A DNA stretch of 64,000 nucleotides from Solibacillus merdavium. Lineage in GTDB: Bacteria > Bacillota > Bacilli > Bacillales_A > Planococcaceae. Positions 14,599 through 27,568 of this stretch are shown here, piece by piece. How positions within the stretch are numbered: the stretch's first letter is position 1; each line of letters opens with the position of its first letter. Under the pieces are notes generated by a model, which worked only from the letters and a program-made list of their open reading frames with translations, had not been told where the DNA came from and searched no databases. The position numbers were made by a program, and so were the translations under genes. Location: assembly GCF_014836935.1 (NCBI RefSeq), contig NZ_JACSPW010000012.1:62001-126000 (forward strand), given 5' to 3'.

Positions 14599-15189
14599 AT
14601 GGAACCGATTAATATCGTCAACAGCATTTATGCACCACTAGACCGTAAAAATGTCGATACTGACCAAATTATTTCAAAAGAGTTTTTAAAGCGTATTGAG
14701 CGTACAGGGTTCGGACAATACGTATTTTATCACTGGCGTTTTGATAAGGACGGCAAGCCAAATGAGGATTTCGTATTAAACAAGCCTGAATATAATAGTG
14801 CTGAAATTTTAGTCGCACAGGATAACTTCGGCTGCGGTTCTTCACGCGAACATGCACCATGGGCCATTCTTGATTACGGCTTCCGCGTAGTCATAGCACC
14901 GAGCTTTGCAGATATTTTCCATAATAACTGCTTTAAAAACGGTATTTTACCGATTAAATTAACAGAAGCTGAATGTGATGAACTATTGGAAAAAGGCTTA
15001 GAAAAAGCACAGGCCATTGAAGTGAACCTGGAGCAACAAACAGTTACTACAGGTTATGGCAAAACGTATTCATTTACGATTGACCCATATTATAAGCAAA
15101 TGCTGTTAAATGGCTGGGATGAAATTTCGTTGACATTCCAGTATGAAGATCAAATAGCGGCATATGAGAAAAAGCGTATAGCATATTAA
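14599..15189 (+). CDS. leuD: 3-Isopropylmalate dehydratase small subunit
   Basis: Swivelling-domain partner of LeuC. 196 residues with the family motifs DRKNVDTDQIISKEFLK, DNFGCGSSREHAPWAILDYGF and FADIFHNNCFKNGILP. AAGGAGAG lies 6 bases before the ATG. Last gene of the ilv-leu cluster; a strong terminator begins 6 bases after the stop. Confidence 0.95.
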   Translation: MEPINIVNSIYAPLDRKNVDTDQIISKEFLKRIERTGFGQYVFYHWRFDKDGKPNEDFVLNKPEYNSAEILVAQDNFGCGSSREHAPWAILDYGFRVVIAPSFADIFHNNCFKNGILPIKLTEAECDELLEKGLEKAQAIEVNLEQQTVTTGYGKTYSFTIDPYYKQMLLNGWDEISLTFQYEDQIAAYEKKRIAY

Positions 15190-15194
15190 AAAAC

Positions 15195-15246
15195 AAGTCT
15201 GTTACTTAGGGATAAAACCTATGTAGCAGACTTTGTCTTATTTTTC
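15195..15246 (+). terminator. Terminator of the ilv-leu operon
   Basis: Long stem AAGTCTG-TTAC-TAGG / CCTA-GTAG-CAGACTT with small internal mismatches, followed by TGTCTTATTTTT. Confidence 0.8.
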
Positions 15247-15312
15247 CGCTTGTTGCCGAAAAATGATATGTTATAATTTTTATAAAAGGTTTAAATAGGT
15301 GAGGTGTGGCTG

Positions 15313-15891
15313 ATGAATAGTTTTTGGAGCTGGTTCGGCATTATTTTTGCTATATTATTTGTTATTGGTTTTATAATGAGCTACTGGATGTATATTGTTG
15401 GTGCGATTGCGCTGTTTTTCGGAGTTAAAAGGCTTATTGCGTACACTAAAGAAAAACAGCATCAAAAAGTTTTGATAGCTGAATCAAAGCGAATTGAGGA
15501 AAATCAGTCAACGATTGAATATAAAATGGACAGACTATTAACGTTAACGAATAATACTGATCCAAACGGCTATAAGCGACAGCAATATAAAAATAAGCAG
15601 CAATTGGATTTGCGGGATTACTGGTATAAATACTTAGATTTACGTGCGAAGTTAATTTTAAATAACACGTCTACATATCGTGAAGAGGAAGTACTACATA
15701 TCATGTGTGATGAATTGCTTAATCGTATGGACAACCTGGAAATCGAAGTGACAGATGCGGTAAAAAAGGAATTCATTGAGGAAAACTTGACGCCCTTATT
15801 ACGAGATGTAGTTGAAATAATGGAAGGTATTAGTCCAATAAAAACTATTAATATTAATGCATACCAATTATTAAAAGCGACTAGTCAATAA
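15313..15891 (+). CDS. Hypothetical membrane-anchored protein
   Basis: 192 residues. Two adjacent membrane segments (about residues 4-22 and 25-43) are followed by a charged, probably helical, cytoplasmic or extracellular part with a coiled-coil-like stretch (ESKRIEENQSTIEYKMDRL). I do not recognise the family. The ATG at 15313 is 6 bases after GGTGAGGTG; the frame is open from GTG 15304 inside that site. It is a single gene between two terminators. Confidence 0.7.
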   Translation: MNSFWSWFGIIFAILFVIGFIMSYWMYIVGAIALFFGVKRLIAYTKEKQHQKVLIAESKRIEENQSTIEYKMDRLLTLTNNTDPNGYKRQQYKNKQQLDLRDYWYKYLDLRAKLILNNTSTYREEEVLHIMCDELLNRMDNLEIEVTDAVKKEFIEENLTPLLRDVVEIMEGISPIKTININAYQLLKATSQ

Positions 15892-15906
15892 TACAAAGAA
15901 TCCAAA

Positions 15907-15954
15907 GAAAGAGACTCAAACTATATTTTACATATAGTCTGGAGTCTCTTTTTA
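15907..15954. terminator. Bidirectional terminator
   Basis: AAAGAGACTC / GAGTCTCTTT perfect outer stem with an inner ACTATA/TATAGT stem, followed by T-run. It lies between convergent genes. Confidence 0.85.
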
Positions 15955-15963
15955 ATACCATAT

Positions 15964-17700
15964 TTATATCGCAACCCAATGTCCCTTTGATACTTCAACA
16001 AGCTCTGTATTTTCCACATCAAAGCGATTTGCAATAAGCTCCTCTTCAGTCATTACTTTGCGCTTTTTCAGTTTTTCAATCGCAGGATCAGGTATTGGAA
16101 TGGAATCAAGCAGCATTTTCGTATACGGATGCAGAGGATTAGCATAAAGCTCTTCACTTTCTGCTAATTCGACAATTTTCCCGCCATACATAACAGCTAC
16201 TCGATCACTAATATGCTTTACCATAGATAAATCATGAGCGATGAATAAATAGGTTAATCCAAGTCGCTGCTGCAAGTCTTTTAATAAATCCACTACTTGC
16301 TTTTGAATCGAAACATCCAATGCTGAAAGTGGCTCATCGCACACAATAAATTGTGGTTCTACTGCAAGTGCACGGGCAATTCCGATTCGTTGGCGCTGAC
16401 CACCGCTGAATTCATGTGGGTAACGAAGTGCATGCTCTTTATTCAGACCGACAAGTTCTAATAGCTCTTCAACTCGATTACGGCGAGCTTCTTTAGAAGG
16501 GGATAGTTTATGCACATCAAGCGCTTCTCCAATAATATCCAAAACCTTTTTCCGTGGATTTAAGCTTGAATAAGGATCCTGGAAAATCATCTGCATATAA
16601 CGGCGCATGCTTTTCAACTCGTTTTTCGAAAGACGGGTAACAGGTACACCTTTATAAAGTACCTCTCCATCAGTCGGTTCATGTAATTGTAATAATGTCC
16701 GTCCTGTTGTAGATTTACCGGACCCTGATTCACCGACTAGCCCAAGTGTTTCCCCAGGATATATATAGAAGGATAAATCATCCACTGCTTTTAATACATT
16801 GCCTTTAGCTAATTCAAAATGCTTTGAAATGTTTTTCACTTCCACTAAAGGAACATTCACATCCAGATCTGACGATAAATTAGGCATTACTTTTGGTTCT
16901 TTCTTTTCATGGAGCTTTGGCAGTGCATTTAATAATCGCTTAGTATAAGGATGCTTTGGATTGGCGAAAATTTCTTCCGTCTTACCATGCTCAACTACTT
17001 CTCCTTCCTTCATAACAACAACACGATCGCACATACCCGCTACGACACCTAAATCATGCGTAATTAATATAATGGATGTACCAAATCGTTCTTGCATATT
17101 TTTCATTAAAGAAAGAATTTGTGCTTGAATTGTTACATCGAGTGCTGTTGTCGGTTCGTCTGCAATTAAAAGGGAAGGGTTACACGCTAAAGCCATGGCA
17201 ATCATTACCCGTTGACGCATTCCACCACTAAATTCATGTGGGTATTGATTATAGCGCTCTTCACTGTTCTTAATGCCGACAAGCTTCAATAATTCAATTG
17301 TTTTTGCATATGCATCCTTTTTTGAAGCACCTTGATGCTTAATAATTCCTTCTGCAATCTGGTCACCAATACGGATAGTCGGATTGGTTGATGTCATCGG
17401 ATCCTGAAAAATCATACTAATATCTTTTCCGCGGATAGATTCCATTTCTTTTTCAGATTGGGTAACTAGGTTTTTTCCTTGAAATTCGATTATGCCGTCT
17501 TTCAAAAAAGAAGGGGGAGACGGAAGCAGGCGCATAATGGAACGAGCAGTAACACTTTTGCCACTACCGGATTCCCCTACAATACCAACAGTTTCTCCTT
17601 TATTTACATGAAAACTTACGCCTTTTACTGCTTCGAATTCTTGTTCACCAGTAATAAAAGAAACCCGTAAATTTTTTACTTCAAGCAACTTCTCACTCAT
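15964..17700 (-). CDS. Peptide-type ABC transporter, fused double ATPase
   Basis: Drives import of peptides or similar solutes. 578 residues holding two complete OppD/OppF-type nucleotide-binding domains: Walker [12 protein letters not shown] (about 41-51) and [11 protein letters not shown] (about 330), signatures FSGGMRQRV and [11 protein letters not shown], Walker [13 protein letters not shown] and [12 protein letters not shown], plus a C-terminal [12 protein letters not shown] oligopeptide tail. In most systems these are separate DppD and DppF proteins; fused forms such as GsiA are known. It is divergent from the permease-binding-protein operon starting 165 bases away, which is its likely partner. 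AAAGGATG precedes the ATG. Confidence 0.92.
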
Positions 17701-17734
17701 AAATGTTCATCCTTTATAAAATTAAATAATATTG

Positions 17735-17763
17735 TTGACTTATCGATTTTCGTTCTACATAAT
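17735..17763 (+). promoter_or_regulatory. Candidate promoter of the permease operon
   Basis: TTGACT (17735-17740), 17 bases, CATAAT (17758-17763). A CGACTC/GAGTCG hairpin (17808-17831) lies in the resulting leader, shortly before the ribosome site GAAAGGAG. Confidence 0.5.
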
Positions 17764-17865
17764 ACATTACTATACAGGTAGGAATTATACAATATTTAAA
17801 GTTTATACGACTCTCTTCATTTATTGAGTCGAAAGATTATAAGTTAGAAAGGAGCTTTAAGTTCC

Positions 17866-19263
17866 ATGCAGCAATTGTTTTTTGAAAGCTTTCAAAAAAA
17901 TGCTTCTAGGAAAAGCTATTATTTTACCTATGTATTGCTCGGCCTGCTTGTTCACATTATCACCTTTCCAATCTATATGGTGAATCGTTCTAAATCAACG
18001 TATGCTGAAAATGCAATGAATGTGAAACAGCAGATAATAGACAGCGGCAAAGTCATACAATGGCAGCAGCAATATGAAGCAGAAGAAAGAACGAAAGCAC
18101 AGTTTTTCAAACAAAGTATTATAGAGCAGGAAATTGCAGTGAAAGCAAAGCAGTTAGCGCAAATGAAATTAGAGCGGGAAGCAGAAAAAACGCTTACTAC
18201 TACCGGTATACTGAAAAACTCCTATAAAAATTACTTCAGTAATCTTCTAAAACAACCACTATTTTTACTGATTACTATAATTCCAGGTATTTTTATGTAC
18301 GCTCTACTACTTATTACGAGTAATCCTTTTATTCGTTTTATATTTGAACGCTTATTGCAAAGCGTGTTTGTCATTATTGGGGTGGCAACACTTGTATTTA
18401 CAATTTTGTACATTTCACCATTTGACCCGGCGCGGAATTTACTAGGGGTAGAAGCAACACCTGCACAAATCGAAAACTTTAATAAGCTTTACGGGTTGGA
18501 TCAGCCGTATTTAGTACAGCTTTGGCATTCATTATCCGGGCTTTTTACTTTTGATTTAGGAACTTCTTTCGCAGGGAAGGAAGATGTCACACAAAGTATT
18601 TTAAATAAATTCCCCGTTACCTTGGAAATTGCAATGTTTTCACTCTTGATGGCGATTGCCATTGCGATTCCTGTAGGGATTATTTCTGCAGTAAGACCGA
18701 ACTCATTTATTGACTACGTATTCATGTTTGTAGCGTTAATCGGTTTATCTATTCCAAGCTTTTGGCAAGGATTAATATTTATTTTAACGTTCTCATTAGA
18801 ATTAAAATGGTTCCCGGCAACGTACAACCCGAACAATTGGATGTCGATTGTTTTGCCGATTATTGTACTCGGAACATCGATTACCGCATCGATCGCGCGT
18901 ATGACACGTTCAAGCATGTTGGAAGTCATTCATGAGGATTACATTATTACTGCAAAAGCAAAAGGGTTAAGTGAGCGTAAAGTCATTACGAAACATGCGA
19001 TCCGTAATGCAATGATTCCTATTATTACAGTAATCGGATTGTTATTTGGCGGAATGCTTGGCGGTGCTGCAGTAACAGAGAAAGTATTTAATATTAGCGG
19101 GATTGGAAGCTATATTGTCGACAAACAATTCATTCCCGACATTCCGGCAATTTTAGGCGGGGTTGTCTATATTGCAATCACGATTTCTGTGGTCAATATG
19201 TTGATCGATATTTTATACGCATTCTTTGACCCAAGAATCCGTTCAAAAATGAAAAAATCATAG
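17866..19263 (+). CDS. ABC transporter permease, DppB/OppB type with N-terminal extension
   Basis: Inner-membrane subunit. The normal DppB core begins near residue 150 (RFIFERLLQSVFVIIGVATL, then ISPFDPARNLLG) and includes the LYGLDQPYLVQ segment and the EAA-loop DYIITAKAKGLSERKV. The first 148 residues are extra: one membrane segment (about 20-40), a soluble, Gln/Glu/Lys-rich helical stretch (about 45-112) and a second membrane segment (about 125-147). Usual DppB proteins are near 310-340 residues; this one has 465. The next permease begins 13 bases downstream. Confidence 0.88.
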   Translation: MQQLFFESFQKNASRKSYYFTYVLLGLLVHIITFPIYMVNRSKSTYAENAMNVKQQIIDSGKVIQWQQQYEAEERTKAQFFKQSIIEQEIAVKAKQLAQMKLEREAEKTLTTTGILKNSYKNYFSNLLKQPLFLLITIIPGIFMYALLLITSNPFIRFIFERLLQSVFVIIGVATLVFTILYISPFDPARNLLGVEATPAQIENFNKLYGLDQPYLVQLWHSLSGLFTFDLGTSFAGKEDVTQSILNKFPVTLEIAMFSLLMAIAIAIPVGIISAVRPNSFIDYVFMFVALIGLSIPSFWQGLIFILTFSLELKWFPATYNPNNWMSIVLPIIVLGTSITASIARMTRSSMLEVIHEDYIITAKAKGLSERKVITKHAIRNAMIPIITVIGLLFGGMLGGAAVTEKVFNISGIGSYIVDKQFIPDIPAILGGVVYIAITISVVNMLIDILYAFFDPRIRSKMKKS

Positions 19264-19276
19264 GAGAGAGTAACAC

Positions 19277-20773
19277 GTGAAATTTATATCAGATGTAAAA
19301 CTGCTGTTGAAAATAACACAAGAGTATGTAAATGCACAGTTTACCATTGCTTTTTCTGCGATTTTTTCATTGCTGTTTTTACTTTATTGTTTTAACTTTT
19401 CAGAAGGTGTTTGGAGACCGATTGTATTGGTGTTCTTTGCAATCTATGCTGCAACAACCATTTACGTATGGCTCACATCACTAGTTATAAAAAAGGATTT
19501 GGCGAAGCATCGTGAAGTGACTAAACGGAGTCGATTGCTCGGCATTCCGCTTATTTTAACAGTTTTCGCTGGGAATGTTTTTGCAGCGGGCTATGGTTTT
19601 ATGCTTGCTTCAAAAAATAAGACGGCCGAATACACATTTGCCGTCTATGCATTTCTAACGCAAATCTTTATTTTAATGATTTCAGGTTTAAACATATTCA
19701 AGCCATACGTTGTGGACACATTTATACTCGCGATGGGTACATTCATCATTTTAGCGGCGTTGTATTTAGTTACAGCTATTTTAATAGCGAGACATGTAAC
19801 GGTTGATACGGCTCCAAAATGGATGTTGCCTCTAGGGATCGTATTACTTATTCCAACATTAACAGGTAATTTCTTTTCATTACTTCTAGGAATTACGTTA
19901 ATACGGAAAGCACGTAACACGGACCCGTCTGCTGTAGAGAAATGGCAAAAAACGTGGAACAAAATATTGCGTAATACGATGGCAGTGTTCGGTTTATTTT
20001 TCATCGTATTTATGTTCAGTTTATCGGTTGTCAGCTCATGGACATTTGACTATGACTTTGCAGTTGAAAACAACTATGCTGTGTTATTGCAAACACCAAC
20101 CCTTGAATATCCATTAGGTACTGATAATTTTGGCCGAGATTTATTCTCACGTATTGTGTTTGGTGCGCAGATTTCATTAATTGTAGGTTTTTGTGCAACG
20201 ATTATTCCAGCTTTAATCGGTGGGGCACTTGGTGCGATTTCAGGGTATTACGGTAAAAACACAGACAATATTATTATGCGTGCACTTGATGTGCTCTATG
20301 CTATCCCGGGTATTTTACTGGCAATTGCCATTATCGCAGCTTTTGGAGCAAATACGACGAACTTAATTATCGCGTTAAGTGTTGGCGCGATTCCGACTTA
20401 TGCGCGTACGATGCGTGCAAATGTAATGCAAATCTCAAACTACGAATTTGTGGAATCTGCCAGGGCATTAGGGGCAAACGATCGCTCGATTATTTTCAGG
20501 CATATCGTTCCAAATGCTTTAGCACCAATGATTGTAAAGGCGACTTTAACAATTGGGGGGGCGGTAATTTCCACAAGTAGTTTAAGCTTCCTTGGCCTCG
20601 GCATTGAGCCACATATACCGGAATGGGGCAATATTTTAAAAGTAGGAAGCACTTATTTGGAATCACATTCTTATTTAGCGATTTTCCCTGGGCTGTGCAT
20701 CATGCTGCTTGTTTTATCGTTTAACTTCTTTGGCGATGGACTGCGTGACGCACTAGACCCGAAATCAAATTAA
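19277..20773 (+). CDS. ABC transporter permease, DppC/OppC type with N-terminal extension
   Basis: Second permease subunit. The familiar OppC core starts near residue 225 with the NTMAVFGLFFIVFMF segment and the typical PLGTDNFGRDLFSRIVFGAQISL, and has the EAA loop YEFVESARALGANDRS and IPEWGNILK. About 220 extra N-terminal residues carry some six hydrophobic segments. It has 498 residues where about 300 is usual. Start GTG, AGGAGAG 8 bases upstream. The binding-protein gene follows within 20 bases. Confidence 0.88.
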   Translation: MKFISDVKLLLKITQEYVNAQFTIAFSAIFSLLFLLYCFNFSEGVWRPIVLVFFAIYAATTIYVWLTSLVIKKDLAKHREVTKRSRLLGIPLILTVFAGNVFAAGYGFMLASKNKTAEYTFAVYAFLTQIFILMISGLNIFKPYVVDTFILAMGTFIILAALYLVTAILIARHVTVDTAPKWMLPLGIVLLIPTLTGNFFSLLLGITLIRKARNTDPSAVEKWQKTWNKILRNTMAVFGLFFIVFMFSLSVVSSWTFDYDFAVENNYAVLLQTPTLEYPLGTDNFGRDLFSRIVFGAQISLIVGFCATIIPALIGGALGAISGYYGKNTDNIIMRALDVLYAIPGILLAIAIIAAFGANTTNLIIALSVGAIPTYARTMRANVMQISNYEFVESARALGANDRSIIFRHIVPNALAPMIVKATLTIGGAVISTSSLSFLGLGIEPHIPEWGNILKVGSTYLESHSYLAIFPGLCIMLLVLSFNFFGDGLRDALDPKSN

Positions 20774-20792
20774 TTTTTTGGAGGAACTATTC

Positions 20793-22601
20793 ATGAATAA
20801 AAAGTTATTTACATTAGCATCAACAGCAACAGTAGCAGCAGTAGCATTAACAGGTTGTGTAGAAACAAAATCGGATGTAAAAGAAAATGATGGGGCAGAA
20901 AGCACTGGAACGAAACCAGTTATTGAATTATTAGGTATGGGTTCTTCTGAGCAGGATATGAACATCGTACGCGATCAATTAGTGAAAAACGGCTTTGATG
21001 TAAAGCTGAACATTCAACCGGATTACGGTTCATTTACAGCGCAACAAGATGCAGGCAACTTCGACATTGCGATTTCAAGCTGGACGACAGTTACAGGGAA
21101 CCCTGACTATGCAGTGCGCGGTCTATTTAAATCAGGTGGCGACTACAGCCGCACAGCAGACAAAACAGTTGATAAATTAATCGACGAAGCAAGTACTTTA
21201 ACAGGTGATGAAGCGAAAGAAAAATATAAAGAGCTTGAACAAGCACTAGTATTCGATAATGCTTACATTGCACCACTTTACATTTCTCAAAAGTTCCAAG
21301 GAATTTATAAAACAGAAGTTAACCCGGATACAGTGCGTTTACCAAAATCACGTGCCCAGGCTTGGGAAACAATTTCGTTTAATGATGAAGGTAAAAATGC
21401 TTCTGAAACTTTAGTATTGCACCAAGCAATTGCATCATTAACTTCACTTGACCCAGTAAAAGCAAACGACGGATCAATTAACACGTTAAATACGAATATG
21501 TATGTGCGTTTAGTAAATTTATCGGATACAGATGATGTCGTTTCTGAAGGTTCATTATCGTATGACCATGCAATTGCAGAAAACAACGAAGAGTATTATT
21601 TCGTACTGCGTGATGACATTAACTTCGCGAAAGTAGAAGGTGAGAAAGCGGTTGATACGGGTGATTTAGTATCGGCAGAAGATGTTGTATTCTCACTAAA
21701 CCGTGCAAAAGATGAAAATTCTGTACCGGATCACCGCACATATTCAATCCATGAAAATATCGATACAGTCGAAATCGTTTCGGATCTTACTTCATTGGAG
21801 TCAGTTAAAACAGCTGATGGTAAATCGATTTTAGAAGAATTATCGGATGAATTACCAGCAGCTATTTCTGAAGTTGTAACAGATGAAAAAGATGTAGACA
21901 ACGCAGCAGGTAAGTACCAAGTTGTTAAACTAACAACGCCAAATCCTTTCCCGCAAGTATTAAATTACTTAGCTCACCAATCTGGCGGTATCGTATCGGA
22001 AGCTGCAGTAACAGCAGTAAATACATTTGATGTAGCAAGTTATGATCCGAACTCAGATATTGCTTACGGTGATCAATCAACAATTACGGAAGGTGGCAGC
22101 TACGCTAACCATCTAGCTGCATCTGGTCCATATATTTTAGTGAAGAAAAATGACTATGAAGCTACATTCGTGAAAAACCCGGCTTATCAAGCAGGAACTG
22201 AAAACGAACCGAAAATTGAAAACATCAGCGTTCGTTTCATCCAAGATAATGATAGTGCACTTTCTGCATTGCGTAACGGTGAAATTCACGTATTACAATC
22301 AGTACCTGAAACGAAAACAGACGTAGTAGAAGGCGATGAAAACCTACAATTGAAAACTGCAGACAGTAACGCCGTATCTTATTTATTGTTCAATACAAGC
22401 GGCCGTGAAACTGCTAAATCAGCAGACTTACGTAAAGCAGTACTATATTCAATTAATCAATCAGAGTTCATCAGCTACTATCAAGACAAGAAAAAGCCAG
22501 CAGTATCAACAGTTACACCTTTAATTGACACAGGATTAAAACTAGAGGCTGACAGCGCAAAAGTTAAAGAGTTTTTAAACGCTTATAACGAATCAAAATA
22601 A
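20793..22601 (+). CDS. Peptide-type binding lipoprotein, apparently circularly permuted SBP_bac_5
   Basis: Extracellular substrate-binding subunit. 602 residues; signal peptide and lipobox ALTGC give a lipid-anchored Cys22. The order of conserved blocks is unusual. Residues about 45-200 (PVIELLG..., FDIAISSW..GNPDYAVRGLF, KTVDKLIDEA, YKELEQALVFDNAYIAPLY) look like the C-terminal third of a family 5 binding protein. Residues about 205-602 (LVLHQAIASLTSLDP, YYFVLRDDINF, SAEDVVFSLNRA, GPYILVKKNDY, SADLRKAVLYSINQSEFI) look like its N-terminal two-thirds, and the protein ends where the C-terminal part would begin. Start ATG 20793, GGAGG 8 bases upstream. Confidence 0.9.
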   Translation: MNKKLFTLASTATVAAVALTGCVETKSDVKENDGAESTGTKPVIELLGMGSSEQDMNIVRDQLVKNGFDVKLNIQPDYGSFTAQQDAGNFDIAISSWTTVTGNPDYAVRGLFKSGGDYSRTADKTVDKLIDEASTLTGDEAKEKYKELEQALVFDNAYIAPLYISQKFQGIYKTEVNPDTVRLPKSRAQAWETISFNDEGKNASETLVLHQAIASLTSLDPVKANDGSINTLNTNMYVRLVNLSDTDDVVSEGSLSYDHAIAENNEEYYFVLRDDINFAKVEGEKAVDTGDLVSAEDVVFSLNRAKDENSVPDHRTYSIHENIDTVEIVSDLTSLESVKTADGKSILEELSDELPAAISEVVTDEKDVDNAAGKYQVVKLTTPNPFPQVLNYLAHQSGGIVSEAAVTAVNTFDVASYDPNSDIAYGDQSTITEGGSYANHLAASGPYILVKKNDYEATFVKNPAYQAGTENEPKIENISVRFIQDNDSALSALRNGEIHVLQSVPETKTDVVEGDENLQLKTADSNAVSYLLFNTSGRETAKSADLRKAVLYSINQSEFISYYQDKKKPAVSTVTPLIDTGLKLEADSAKVKEFLNAYNESK

Positions 22602-22610
22602 TAGAATTGT

Positions 22611-22647
22611 AACCGGAGTATTCTTAATTGAGTGCTCCGGTTTTTTT
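22611..22647 (+). terminator. Terminator of the ABC transporter operon
   Basis: AACCGGAG / CTCCGGTT stem with a 16-base loop that can extend the stem in part (TATTCTTAATTGAGTG), followed by seven T. Confidence 0.85.
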
Positions 22648-22729
22648 GGTGCACCTGTTAAGTCCTTATTTGGTTCATCACCATAAGTCGGGATGATAAA
22701 ACTGAAAAAATAAGATTTTCTCATTAAAA

Positions 22730-22920
22730 CCGTTCTGCTGCGCTACGGGAAAGGCGTTGAAGCAAGTGTTTTTGAATCTTGGGGCAGGCTTTCCGGGTGG
22801 CGTGGTTCCAACTAACTATTGATGCCTCTGACGGTGGCATCAATAGTGGAATTTCCGCGCACGCTTAATCGCCAAGGAGTCCGCCCTACACTTTGCACAA
22901 CTCTTTTTGTTGAAGCAAGT
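22730..22920 (-). repeat. GC-rich structured interspersed repeat, degenerate copy in minus orientation
   Basis: Read on the minus strand it shows the family blocks GGCGGACTCCTTGGCGATTAAG near one end and ACCCGGAAAGCCTGCCCC near the other, matching the ends of the copy at 46.2 kb. Its core is a perfect 12-bp hairpin, ACTATTGATGCC (22815-22826) with GGCATCAATAGT (22836-22847). The outer limits are uncertain. Confidence 0.5.
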
Positions 22921-22960
22921 ATGTTGGCGGCTTCAGGAAGATTGAATTCCTTATTGAGGT

Positions 22961-23152
22961 AAATAGAGGAAGGAATTTCCGTTATTTCGAAAACAACATA
23001 AAAAATAGTGAAAATAAGGGAAGGAATTTCCGTTATTGACCTAAAAAACATGAAATTTCGGGATTTTATTTAAAATAACGGTAAAACGTTCCCTTATTTA
23101 TCCCAAAATGAGCAACAACATTAAAATAACGGTAAAATCTTCCCTTATTGAA
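22961..23152. repeat. AT-rich interspersed repeat cluster A
   Basis: Four related units of about 25 bases with 20-35-base spacers: AATAGAGGAAGGAATTTCCG (from 22962) and AATAAGGGAAGGAATTTCCG (from 23013), each followed by TTATT, then two inverted copies, AATAACGGTAAAACGTTCCC (from 23074) and AATAACGGTAAAATCTTCCC (from 23126), followed by TTATT. The remaining bases of 22648-23470 hold no convincing gene; the reading frame at 23158-23451 lacks a ribosome site. Confidence 0.65.
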
Positions 23153-23470
23153 AACTGATGGCGAATTATTTTTTTTTTGCAAAAATAAGGCGCTTTCTAT
23201 CTGCTAAGGCGTTGGTCGGACGCTTCAGCACTTTTGTTCCATCATTTTATAACGAGGGAAATGTGCCTCACAAGCAGCAATGCAATGATAAAAACACGTA
23301 TTACCGGTTTTTAGCGCTGTCTTGCCGTAGCCCAACAATCTATCAAGTGAAAGTTTTATTAGAAAATCAACCCCATGTTTTGTTGAACCCCTTATTTAGA
23401 ATATTTAACATCAACTTACTTTTTCATGGTACAATTTACATGCGAGTTTAATTAAGAAAGGTTGATTTTC

Positions 23471-25279
23471 ATGACTAATAAAAAATCAGCAGCACTATTT
23501 TCCATTCTTTCCATTCCTGCTGCAATTGTAATTACGGATGCACCTGCTTATGCAAATAGCAGTAATTCCTATGATTGGCAAGTATATAACGTAGAGAGCT
23601 TAATCGATCAGATTAATTCTGCAAGCAGTACATATGATTACTACTTAAAAGAAGCACGAAATGCCTACAATGCATTAACGTATTACCAGCAGACGCAAGT
23701 AAGGAATGCGGCGACATTATTTTATTATTTAGATACATATGAAAACCATCAAGACATTTTGAATATATTTGTTGGAAAAATGAATGCAATTTCAGCTAGA
23801 AACAGTACATTTATTCGAGATATAGAAGACGCGAATCGTTATTACAATTCATTAACGTATTCACAGAAAAATGCTATACCGAACCATTTATACATACAAC
23901 TTCAAAATTATGTAGAGAACCTGAAAAAAATGGAGGCTGTACAACTCAGCTTCGAACAATTAAATACAAAAGATTGGAACTATCTATCGAACTATCAATC
24001 CGCGATGCAAGCGTACAATTTATTGCCTTATGATTTCCGTACTTTACTGTCACCGATTGCAAATGAAAAAATGCGTGAGTATGAACAGCAACAGTCACCT
24101 GCCTACAATCGTTCAATCGCGCAAAAGGTAATGACAGCCATATCGAAATTGAACACTTCCTCAACACAGCAGCAAGTAGAAGCGGTACGTAAGGAATATA
24201 ATGCCTTAAACACAGTGCAGCAAAGATTAGTAACAAATTTAGAAGATTTATTATATATAGAAGAAGCTCAGCGCAATATCGCGTTTGGTTGGGACCCGTA
24301 CTATTATGAAGATAATCGACAAAAGGAAGATCCAACGTCGATTGAAGTTTCAAAAAAAGAGAATTCGTATTCAGTGTTAATTCCTGTATCGGATATGAAG
24401 TGGAATACACCAACTAAAATAACGGTTTCTGACAGCATTTCGCTTTCCATTCCTCGAAGTGCAATACCTGCTTCTTACAATAATGGAGTAGTTGCGGTGA
24501 GTATTGATGAAGTAAAAGGGGGGTCCATTTTGTTTTCAGCAAGTATGGATAACGAAAATTTACAGTTTTCATCCTATATTGATATTGAAGTAAAAAATAT
24601 CCCTGCATCAGCAACAATACTTCGTTTAGGTAATGACGGTGAATTTGAAGCAACGCCCTATACGAGAGTGGCGAACAAGCATGTGTTAAAGACAAAAAAT
24701 TCAGCAGAATATATCGTTTCCGAGCATAATCCAAAGTTCTTTGATATTCAGGGAGACGGTCACCGCTATCAAATTGAGCAGCTAGCGAAACGTAAAATTG
24801 TATCAGGAGTTGAAAATAACTATTTCAAACCGAGTGCTCATGTTACGTTAGCGCAATATGCTGCAATGATTTCCCGCTCAATGGGTTTAAAGGCTAATGA
24901 AGATTCTACTTATCAAGATGTTCATGGGAAATGGTTTGAGGCATCTATCCAATCACTACTTGAGGTAGGGATATTGGACAATAAAAATTCAAATTATTTT
25001 AATGCTGAACAAGTGGTGACACGTAAACAAGCTGCACTACTATCTATCCGTATGCTGCAGCATGCAGGAGTGACAATTTCTGATCCAAACTTAAGTAAAA
25101 TTCCTTTCACGGATCTTAAACAGCTTTCTTCTTCGGAGCGCTACTATATCGCATTGGCATATGAATATGGCATTTTCGGAGGGAAAGAGAATGGCCAGTT
25201 TGATCCAAATGGAAAATTAACACGATCCCAAATGGCGAAAGTATTACACCGCACTTTACAAATTGCTAAGATGATTTAG
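23471..25279 (+). CDS. S-layer homology (SLH) domain surface protein
   Basis: Secreted cell-wall protein of 602 residues. A signal peptide (MTNKKSAALFSILSIPAAIV, cleavage after AYA) is followed by four helical repeats of about 65 residues, each with a Y(N)xLxxxxQxxV-type core (YNALTYYQQTQV, YYNSLTYSQKNAI, YNLLPYDFRTLL, YNALNTVQQRLV). A beta-rich central region (about 285-430) follows, then three C-terminal SLH motifs from about 427 (FFDIQGDGHRYQIEQLA, YQDVHGKWFEASIQSL, FTDLKQLSSSERYYIALAYEYG) that bind pyruvylated wall polymer. AAAGG is 8 bases before the ATG at 23471; an upstream TTG is less likely. Confidence 0.88.
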   Translation: MTNKKSAALFSILSIPAAIVITDAPAYANSSNSYDWQVYNVESLIDQINSASSTYDYYLKEARNAYNALTYYQQTQVRNAATLFYYLDTYENHQDILNIFVGKMNAISARNSTFIRDIEDANRYYNSLTYSQKNAIPNHLYIQLQNYVENLKKMEAVQLSFEQLNTKDWNYLSNYQSAMQAYNLLPYDFRTLLSPIANEKMREYEQQQSPAYNRSIAQKVMTAISKLNTSSTQQQVEAVRKEYNALNTVQQRLVTNLEDLLYIEEAQRNIAFGWDPYYYEDNRQKEDPTSIEVSKKENSYSVLIPVSDMKWNTPTKITVSDSISLSIPRSAIPASYNNGVVAVSIDEVKGGSILFSASMDNENLQFSSYIDIEVKNIPASATILRLGNDGEFEATPYTRVANKHVLKTKNSAEYIVSEHNPKFFDIQGDGHRYQIEQLAKRKIVSGVENNYFKPSAHVTLAQYAAMISRSMGLKANEDSTYQDVHGKWFEASIQSLLEVGILDNKNSNYFNAEQVVTRKQAALLSIRMLQHAGVTISDPNLSKIPFTDLKQLSSSERYYIALAYEYGIFGGKENGQFDPNGKLTRSQMAKVLHRTLQIAKMI

Positions 25280-26215: not shown

Positions 26216-27568
26216 ATGAGAAAGTTTACAAAAACGGCTATTGCAACAACGTTAGGAACGACTCTAATGCTTACAACAATTATGCCCGTCGTTAAAGCAG
26301 AGCAGGTTATTCCCGATATTAGTAATTGGGCAATCCAAACATTAAATGATGGCGAAAAGTTCGGCATTTTCCCAATTGAATGGTATTATGATGGCTTTCG
26401 ATCTACCATTTCCACTGAACGTTTAAATTCATTAATGACATTAACAGAAAAGAAAATTGCAGGTTTAAATTTAGCGAAAAATGATGCCTTTACCCCATTA
26501 AAAGTCTCTAATGACAAAACACGTGGGGATATCATTAACCAACTTTATAACATTGTCGCACAATACGATTTGAATGTATCAGAAGATGCGGTTAAATATA
26601 TGCAGGAGCGCAAAGTATTGCAAGGTTCTGAAAGTGGATTAATGCTTGATGCTAAAGCAACGACTCAGCATGCTGTAATTTTTGCCGTACGTTTAATTCA
26701 AGATACTTTTGAACAGGCAAATGCAGGTGCAAAAGGTGTTGCATGGGTAGTAGAGGATGAAGATACAAAAGTATACTTATTGGGCTCGATTCATGTAGGT
26801 ACACCAGATTTACATCCAATGCACAAAAAGTTAACAAATGCCTTTAATGATTCGGATGGTTTATTTGTTGAGGTGAACTCATTGGACCCATCTGGTTTAG
26901 AATATTACATGGAAAAGGCGATGTTTACGGATGGTCGTACAATTAAAGATGTCGTAAGTGAAGAAACGTATGCGAAACTGGAAAAGGTAGCGCAACAGTT
27001 GGGAGTGCCAATGGAAGAGTTGGAATTACACAAACCATGGTTTATCTTCAGTAATTTTTCAACACAATCGTTAGATGGAGTCTTTGGCTTAACACCAGAG
27101 GAAATGGCGATGCATGGAGTAGATATCCAATTTTTACTGAGTGCTTATTTACAGCAAAAGCCTATTTATGAGTTGGAAGGGATGAATGCTCAAGTCGATA
27201 TGTTTGATGGCTTGTCTCAGGAATCACAGGAACAATCCTTAATAGAGGCACTTGATAGTATTTTAGAGCCTTCTGAGCAAACAGATGAAGATGTTAAGAT
27301 CATGGCCGATTGGTTTACGAACTGGGTCAATGGCGACATTGAAAAATTTGCAGAAAGCTTAAAAGAAATGAATGAAGATACTTCGGAATTTAACGAAATG
27401 CTATTCGGTAAACGTGACGAACAAATGGCTGCCAAACTTGTAGAAGTATTGGAAAAACAACAAGGTACGTTCTTTGTAGTAGTTGGGGCAGGTCACTTTT
27501 TGGTAGACAAAAATATCCGCTATCATTTAGAGCAAAGCGGATATGAAGTAAAACCGTTTTATCAATAA
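26216..27568 (+). CDS. TraB/GumN family protein, exported
   Basis: 450 residues with a signal peptide (MRKFTKTAIATTLGTTLML, cleavage near VKAEQ). Residues about 30-165 resemble degenerate SLH-like helices (WAIQTLNDGEKFGIFP). From 170 on lies a TraB/GumN (Tiki-like) domain: the GX2H motif LLGSIHVGTPDLHP, FVEVNSLDP with a conserved Glu, a HGVDIQFL segment, and the C-terminal second GX2H, VVVGAGHFLVDKNI. Members are proposed metalloproteases; the His and Glu residues are present, so activity is possible. Start ATG after TTTAGGAGGATG. A terminator follows. Confidence 0.82.
   Translation: MRKFTKTAIATTLGTTLMLTTIMPVVKAEQVIPDISNWAIQTLNDGEKFGIFPIEWYYDGFRSTISTERLNSLMTLTEKKIAGLNLAKNDAFTPLKVSNDKTRGDIINQLYNIVAQYDLNVSEDAVKYMQERKVLQGSESGLMLDAKATTQHAVIFAVRLIQDTFEQANAGAKGVAWVVEDEDTKVYLLGSIHVGTPDLHPMHKKLTNAFNDSDGLFVEVNSLDPSGLEYYMEKAMFTDGRTIKDVVSEETYAKLEKVAQQLGVPMEELELHKPWFIFSNFSTQSLDGVFGLTPEEMAMHGVDIQFLLSAYLQQKPIYELEGMNAQVDMFDGLSQESQEQSLIEALDSILEPSEQTDEDVKIMADWFTNWVNGDIEKFAESLKEMNEDTSEFNEMLFGKRDEQMAAKLVEVLEKQQGTFFVVVGAGHFLVDKNIRYHLEQSGYEVKPFYQ

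Follow-up and report, generated by a model that had tools for sequence, protein, structure and literature searches.

Results

Organisation of the transporter locus

The window, a 64,000-nucleotide stretch of the Solibacillus merdavium genome within which all positions below are counted, contains a transporter locus in which two permease genes precede the gene of a substrate-binding lipoprotein and a fused double ATPase is encoded divergently. The features of the locus are as follows.

15964 to 17700, minus strand: fused double ATPase of the GisA type, divergent; Pfam ABC_tran matches twice, and the gene is found at this position in all 20 long loci
17735 to 17794, plus strand: promoter-like site with the conserved motif TACAGGTAGGAATTATACAATA, in the intergenic region from which the ATPase and permease genes diverge
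17866 to 19263, plus strand: permease of the OppB/GisB type with a conserved N-terminal extension of about 155 residues; the Pfam match begins at residue 156
19277 to 20773, plus strand: permease of the OppC/GisC type with a conserved N-terminal extension of about 220 residues; the Pfam OppC_N match begins at residue 223
20793 to 22601, plus strand: permuted family 5 (cluster C) substrate-binding lipoprotein of the GisD type; 602 residues in one open frame, lipobox LTGC
20793 to 20858, plus strand: lipoprotein signal peptide and lipidation cysteine (residues 1–22), predicted from the sequence
20913 to 21341, plus strand: relocated block (residues ~41–183); PF00496 positions 300–366 at 20943–21143, hhalign 39–156 to template 416–537
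21342 to 21428, plus strand: conserved segment bridging the old C-terminus and the old N-terminus (residues ~184–212)
21429 to 22598, plus strand: ordinarily N-terminal portion, continuing into the C-terminal lobe and including its first part (residues ~213–602); PF00496 positions 12–274 at 21573–22580, hhalign 186–579 to template 72–392

The ATG at 20793 gives the binding protein a compact lipoprotein signal, and the in-frame TTG at 20778 is a second possible start; the lipidation cysteine was aligned in 20 of 20 members in the family alignment. The sole Pfam match of the protein is SBP_bac_5 (PF00496), which scored 135.7 bits against a curated cut-off of 32.4 and fell into two stretches. The two permeases matched the nickel, oligopeptide and glutathione models, every one of them below its cut-off. 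From hydropathy, two additional membrane segments were predicted for the first permease and six for the second, as opposed to three for the second permease of the staphylococcal locus L198.

Between the divergent genes, a promoter-like TTGACT site precedes the conserved motif, and this promoter-plus-motif pattern, which was drawn up post hoc and counted without a shuffled control, recurs in 74 of the 117 distinct upstream regions taken from relatives. A link of the motif to the CymR (sulfur) regulon was considered and is not supported: the strict pattern (at most two mismatches) occurs once in the genome, and a loose pattern occurs 17 times, as opposed to 6 in a backward control, with frames downstream that do not look like sulfur genes by eye. 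No Rfam families were found in 15000–24000. Behind the binding-protein gene, four diverged 26-nt repeats in two orientations occupy 22954–23149, and the downstream frames 23462–25279 and 26216–27568 resemble, by eye, a surface-layer-domain protein and a TraB/GumN-type protein, respectively.

Permuted block order of the binding protein

The preliminary description of this DNA had held that blocks which ordinarily close a family 5 binding protein here precede those which ordinarily open it, and all nine peptides that it quoted were recovered from the translation of the open reading frame in the order given. The PF00496 model (368 positions) matched out of order within this one frame, positions 300–366 (20943–21143) coming before positions 12–274 (21573–22580), and the protein thus departs from the normal linear block order of SBP_bac_5 as a permuted variant, a non-standard member of the family. 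The same exchange was seen with the closest solved relative, 5u4o, of which residues 380–489 matched residues 57–162 and residues 189–314 matched residues 432–560 of the window protein. Profile–profile comparison of 20 family members with 8 normal-order proteins likewise gave, in native order, two swapped matches (mature columns 186–579 to template 72–392 and 39–156 to 416–537), and rotation at residue 197 produced a single continuous match of 17–562 to template 79–537 of 572 (probability 99.9%, E 1.1e-37). Truncation and tandem duplication are ruled out because every block is present once; together with the joining of the two swapped matches on rotation, this bears out the earlier claim that the protein is permuted, neither duplicated nor truncated.

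Rotations of the mature protein were also scored against a profile of six of the nine other PF00496 proteins of the same genome (two minus-strand proteins and one more were left out). The best single alignment gained 39–51 bits in 15 of 15 family members (from 78 to 126 bits for the window protein) and spanned nearly the whole profile after rotation in 14 of the 15, that of L057 starting only at position 164; five of five further permuted relatives gained 30–48 bits. The control set consisted of six normal-order paralogues, for each of which the profile was built from the remaining five; their gains were just 0–2.3 bits in all six cases. The score summed over all pieces changed little on rotation (from 117 to 131 bits for the window protein, and falling from 99 to 94 bits for L057), as is expected if identical pieces are merely re-ordered. 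An alignment that allows for circular permutation thus improved all 20 members and gave one continuous profile match, with weaker support from the search of solved structures, in which 12 of the 20 PDB sequences matched gave alignments that span the cut of the rotated window protein, and the best E-value was barely better than that of the native order (3e-12 vs 1e-11).

Position of the cut and the join

In the profile–profile alignment the cut falls at template 392–416, equivalent to about residues 338–353 of chains of the DppA/OppA type (judged from profile 471–598 matching 1dpp 207–338 and profile 35–166 matching 3tcf 353–487), which we take to lie inside the C-terminal lobe as OppA is usually described. 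The preliminary description had let the protein end where the C-terminal lobe begins, and this point has to be amended: the match reaches profile position 274 of 368, so the protein extends into the lobe and the cut is inside it, not at its start. The relocated block consists of the ordinarily final part of the C-terminal lobe together with the C-terminal strand. By analogy of secondary structure, a helix would precede the new C-terminus and a strand would follow the new N-terminus. At the join, K185, S186, R187, A188, W191, E192, F196 and D198 show no variation among 15 aligned sequences; this points to a segment that is folded and not to a loose linker. Since the C-terminal lobe is now what follows the lipidated N-terminus, the protein would be tethered by the lobe opposite to that of a normal Opp/Dpp protein; the earlier expectation that the anchor comes to stand beside the other lobe thus follows from the anatomy of the permuted protein.

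Conservation of the permuted protein and of the extended permeases

Orthologues with the same order, to which the preliminary description had looked for support, were found in the genus, the family and the order as well as among named records. At full length they are present in 16 of 16 Solibacillus genomes, 62 of 151 genomes of the family, 107 of 261 genomes of the order (two of them with one internal TAA) and four of 398 genomes sampled across the phylum, the genome of the window among them (E up to 1e-40). The lone in-frame TAA, found in the orthologues of G200 and G209, may reflect decay or sequencing errors, as may the shortened ATPase and first-permease frames of locus L053. Named records yielded 300 relatives among 336 pattern matches, and the best 80 of these 300, which cover at least residues 21–595, include loci from Solibacillus, Lysinibacillus, Ureibacillus, Sporosarcina, Psychrobacillus, Cytobacillus, Lederbergia, Paenibacillus, Bacillus and others. 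An orthologue of 66% identity lies in a record labelled Arthrobacter beigongshangensis (L106), which may be misnamed or contain a misassigned contig. None of 13 pattern matches on viral contigs was confirmed as a relative. The operon is also borne by a 362-kb plasmid of Metabacillus dongyingensis (L236, NZ_OK052578.1), so that plasmid carriage is possible. Orthologues were found in 12 of 108 genomes of a family that we call Staphylococcus-like, a label based on gene layout and on 97–98% identity at the DNA level to a single named record. A tree of 34 sequences placed the 20 permuted proteins on one side of a branch with support of 100/99, to be read with a long-branch warning that includes the permuted group's own branch.

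All 20 long loci, which come from 11 genera, have the two permease genes before the binding-protein gene and the fused double ATPase divergent. This arrangement could also be read in 110 of 158 loci, a set in which some genomes are counted twice and most of the remaining loci are short or were recruited by their permeases alone. The extension of the second permease was matched in full in 25 of 299 genomes of the class and in part in two more, and all other matches to this permease (E up to 1e-90) start at position 208 or later. The binding protein was permuted in 23 of 23 genomes checked among these 27 (G766, G786, G856 and G879 were left out). Similarly, 10 of the 398 genomes of the phylum sample matched the second permease, six from position 205 on and four in full, and the latter are the four that bear the permuted orthologue. 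At nine loci with the nearest unextended permeases, 11 of 11 family 5 proteins had the normal order, and none scored above 114 bits against the rotated family profile. No normal-order version of the extended-permease transporter was thus found among the 23 checked genomes of the 27 with the extension or at the nine loci with unextended permeases; as far as checked, the permuted protein and the extended permeases go together.

Relation to GisABCD and the predicted ligand

The layout gisA / gisBCD-ggt has been published as the glutathione import system of Staphylococcus aureus, for which the report gives nine predicted membrane regions each in GisB and GisC and full GisABCD homologues only in relatives of S. 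aureus (PMC10355420). Exactly this layout, with ggt directly after the binding-protein gene, was found at 11 of 11 loci of the Staphylococcus-like genus, and the window protein is 38–41% identical to the binding proteins of these loci, with which it is collinear (that is, equally permuted) over nearly its full length. An intermediate locus without ggt (L234) encodes a binding protein 49% identical to that of the window. Beyond this genus, no match to ggt was found beside the operon at any of the loci compared, and in the twelfth orthologue locus of the Staphylococcus-like family, which belongs to another genus, ggt was not found within 18 kb. The only Ggt-family match in the genome of the window lies on a separate contig (G000 contig C6, 32847–34328; L212) and is 28% identical to the staphylococcal Ggt; its N-terminus has no evident signal peptide by eye, and a cytoplasmic partner for imported glutathione is therefore conceivable.

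A named S. aureus record (L235) is 98.3% identical to locus L227 and 97.2% identical to locus L228. Two of its genes, for the ATPase and the first permease, are annotated; a DNA match located the gene of the second permease as well as the beginning of that of the binding protein, whose frame opens with the ordinarily C-terminal part (profile 297–367). As L235 is a mirrored partial copy, the full gene was read from L227 instead. The record itself (NZ_CP077929.1, 17731–27351), designated a plasmid, holds two mirrored partial copies of the transporter locus and looks like an inverted-duplication assembly artefact. From the match of the operon to GisABCD and the presence of ggt in 11 of 11 loci, we infer that GisD-type proteins are natural circular permutants. 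By analogy with GisABCD, the most likely substrate of the copy in the window is glutathione or a related sulfur peptide.

By profile, the nearest solved relatives of the window protein (51–63 bits) are 5u4o, GsiB (YliB, 1uqw), GbpA/HbpA (3m8u, 3tpa) and DppA (1dpp), all of which differ from it in having the normal block order and are of low identity. Binding of glutathione is reported for GsiB (PMC6236770) and for GbpA (PMC3295651). The profile comparison gave about equal scores to members of family 5 that bind other ligands. Alignment with 3tpa suggests that Ser430 and Asp432 of GbpA, described as contacts to the gamma-glutamyl end (PMC3295651), are replaced by Thr98 and Val100, and the window protein thus does not have these GbpA-type contacts. 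The staphylococcal L198 protein has the same two residues at these positions, so the contacts do not decide the question of the ligand. No GisD-like chain was found among solved structures, the best matches being distant and partial.

Discussion

In family 5 importers the ligand is held between the two lobes of a binding protein that docks on the permeases, and import is driven by the ATPase. We propose, at a probability of about 0.78, that the window protein is a circularly permuted cluster C lipoprotein that retains two lobes and acts as the GisD component of a GisABCD-type importer, with glutathione, its disulfide or a related sulfur-containing peptide as the most likely ligand. The permuted order, the single-copy blocks, their conservation and the operon layout are the observations from which we start. 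The conserved segment would connect the old C-terminus to the old N-terminus, and the present ends of the chain would lie in the C-terminal lobe, where a helix is parted from a strand. The complete fold is predicted from sequence comparison: the permuted protein would still adopt the usual two lobes, which would close on the ligand. According to the predicted binding and docking, it would then hand the ligand to the two extended permeases, and the fused ATPase would power import.

That the order arose as an artefact of assembly or reading frame carries a negligible probability and is ruled out because numerous independent assemblies, single-contig genomes among them, show this order in an open frame. 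A fusion of two fragments from different family 5 genes, which would mimic a permutation and might form two partial domains, would look identical in sequence as an end product, yet it is improbable because the parts complement each other almost exactly, each block is single-copy, the cut falls between helix and strand, the join is conserved, and the order has been kept at 38–49% identity to the window protein, which requires a working fold. The protein may be permuted as described and yet have another ligand than glutathione, be it a different peptide, an opine or a metal chelate, in Solibacillus and most Bacillaceae and Paenibacillaceae, with the use of glutathione belonging to the ggt-bearing branch; the lack of a ggt-like frame in the other loci compared, the just 40% identity to the staphylococcal binding protein, the changed GbpA contacts and the sub-threshold scores of the permeases in all three models speak for this. 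However, the layout, the extended permeases and the permuted protein are common to the window and the staphylococcal-type loci, the ggt-less L234 stands between them at 49% identity to the window protein, and the genome does hold one Ggt-family gene elsewhere, albeit 28% identical to the staphylococcal one. We therefore regard another ligand as a serious minority possibility.

Whether the permutation has consequences for transport is a separate matter. The permutation may be real and yet have no bearing on how the protein is tethered, how it docks or what it binds, having come about accidentally through duplication and loss, and we consider the chances of this neutral reading evenly balanced. 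The permuted MglB-2 of Treponema, which reportedly brings no obvious advantage (PMC4990184), is consistent with neutrality, but the joint presence of the permuted protein and the extended permeases in 23 of 23 checked genomes (of 27) hints at an adjustment of one to the other, although it may also reflect shared descent. More speculatively, and in our estimation rather doubtfully, the permutation could be functional and have co-evolved with the permeases, in which case the tether on the C-terminal lobe and the extra permease helices would form a distinct architecture ('Cluster Cc') with tethering and docking other than in Opp/Dpp systems. This architecture would have a single origin that predates the divergence of staphylococci, Planococcaceae, Bacillaceae and Paenibacillaceae, or would have been passed from one group to another.

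Under the proposed reading of the locus as a GisABCD-type importer with a permuted GisD, a large and much-studied class of binding proteins would gain a natural circular permutant that is conserved in many Bacilli, up to the glutathione importer of staphylococci. A linear alignment of GisD with GsiB or DppA would fail to match, or would misplace, roughly a quarter of the protein, so that homologues may have been overlooked and ligand sites wrongly compared. The system also offers a natural experiment on whether the choice of the membrane-tethered lobe matters, a question otherwise addressed by engineering only.

OpuA-type proteins are also permuted. The word stem 'permut' is absent from an OpuA-type paper, and likewise from the main text of PMC10355420 and of the other GisD paper. 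In the open-access literature, searched by title and start of abstract, we found no paper on a permuted family 5 binding protein, and the literature on OpuAC and GisD likewise showed none among the matches listed (the first 20 of 106 and 10 of 185); subscription papers, supplements and surveys of predicted structures lay outside this search. Compared with the S. aureus GisABCD system, the window shares the divergent fused ATPase, the two permeases and the lipoprotein, whereas it has no adjacent ggt, its next frames are unrelated and its GisC extension is longer. A natural, tethered and circularly permuted ABC binding protein has been described in Treponema pallidum, namely Tp0684 (MglB-2), designated 'Type Ic / Cluster Bc', and that paper reports the kind from Gram-positives too and sees no obvious advantage in the permutation (PMC4990184). 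MglB-2 has a Type I / cluster B sugar-binding fold, is cut at a different place and belongs to a family unrelated to the window protein, which, with SBP_bac_5 as its sole Pfam match, is not a cluster B homologue. Natural permuted binding proteins are accordingly already known from another class, and a permutant of family 5, for which our search returned no paper, appears to be new.
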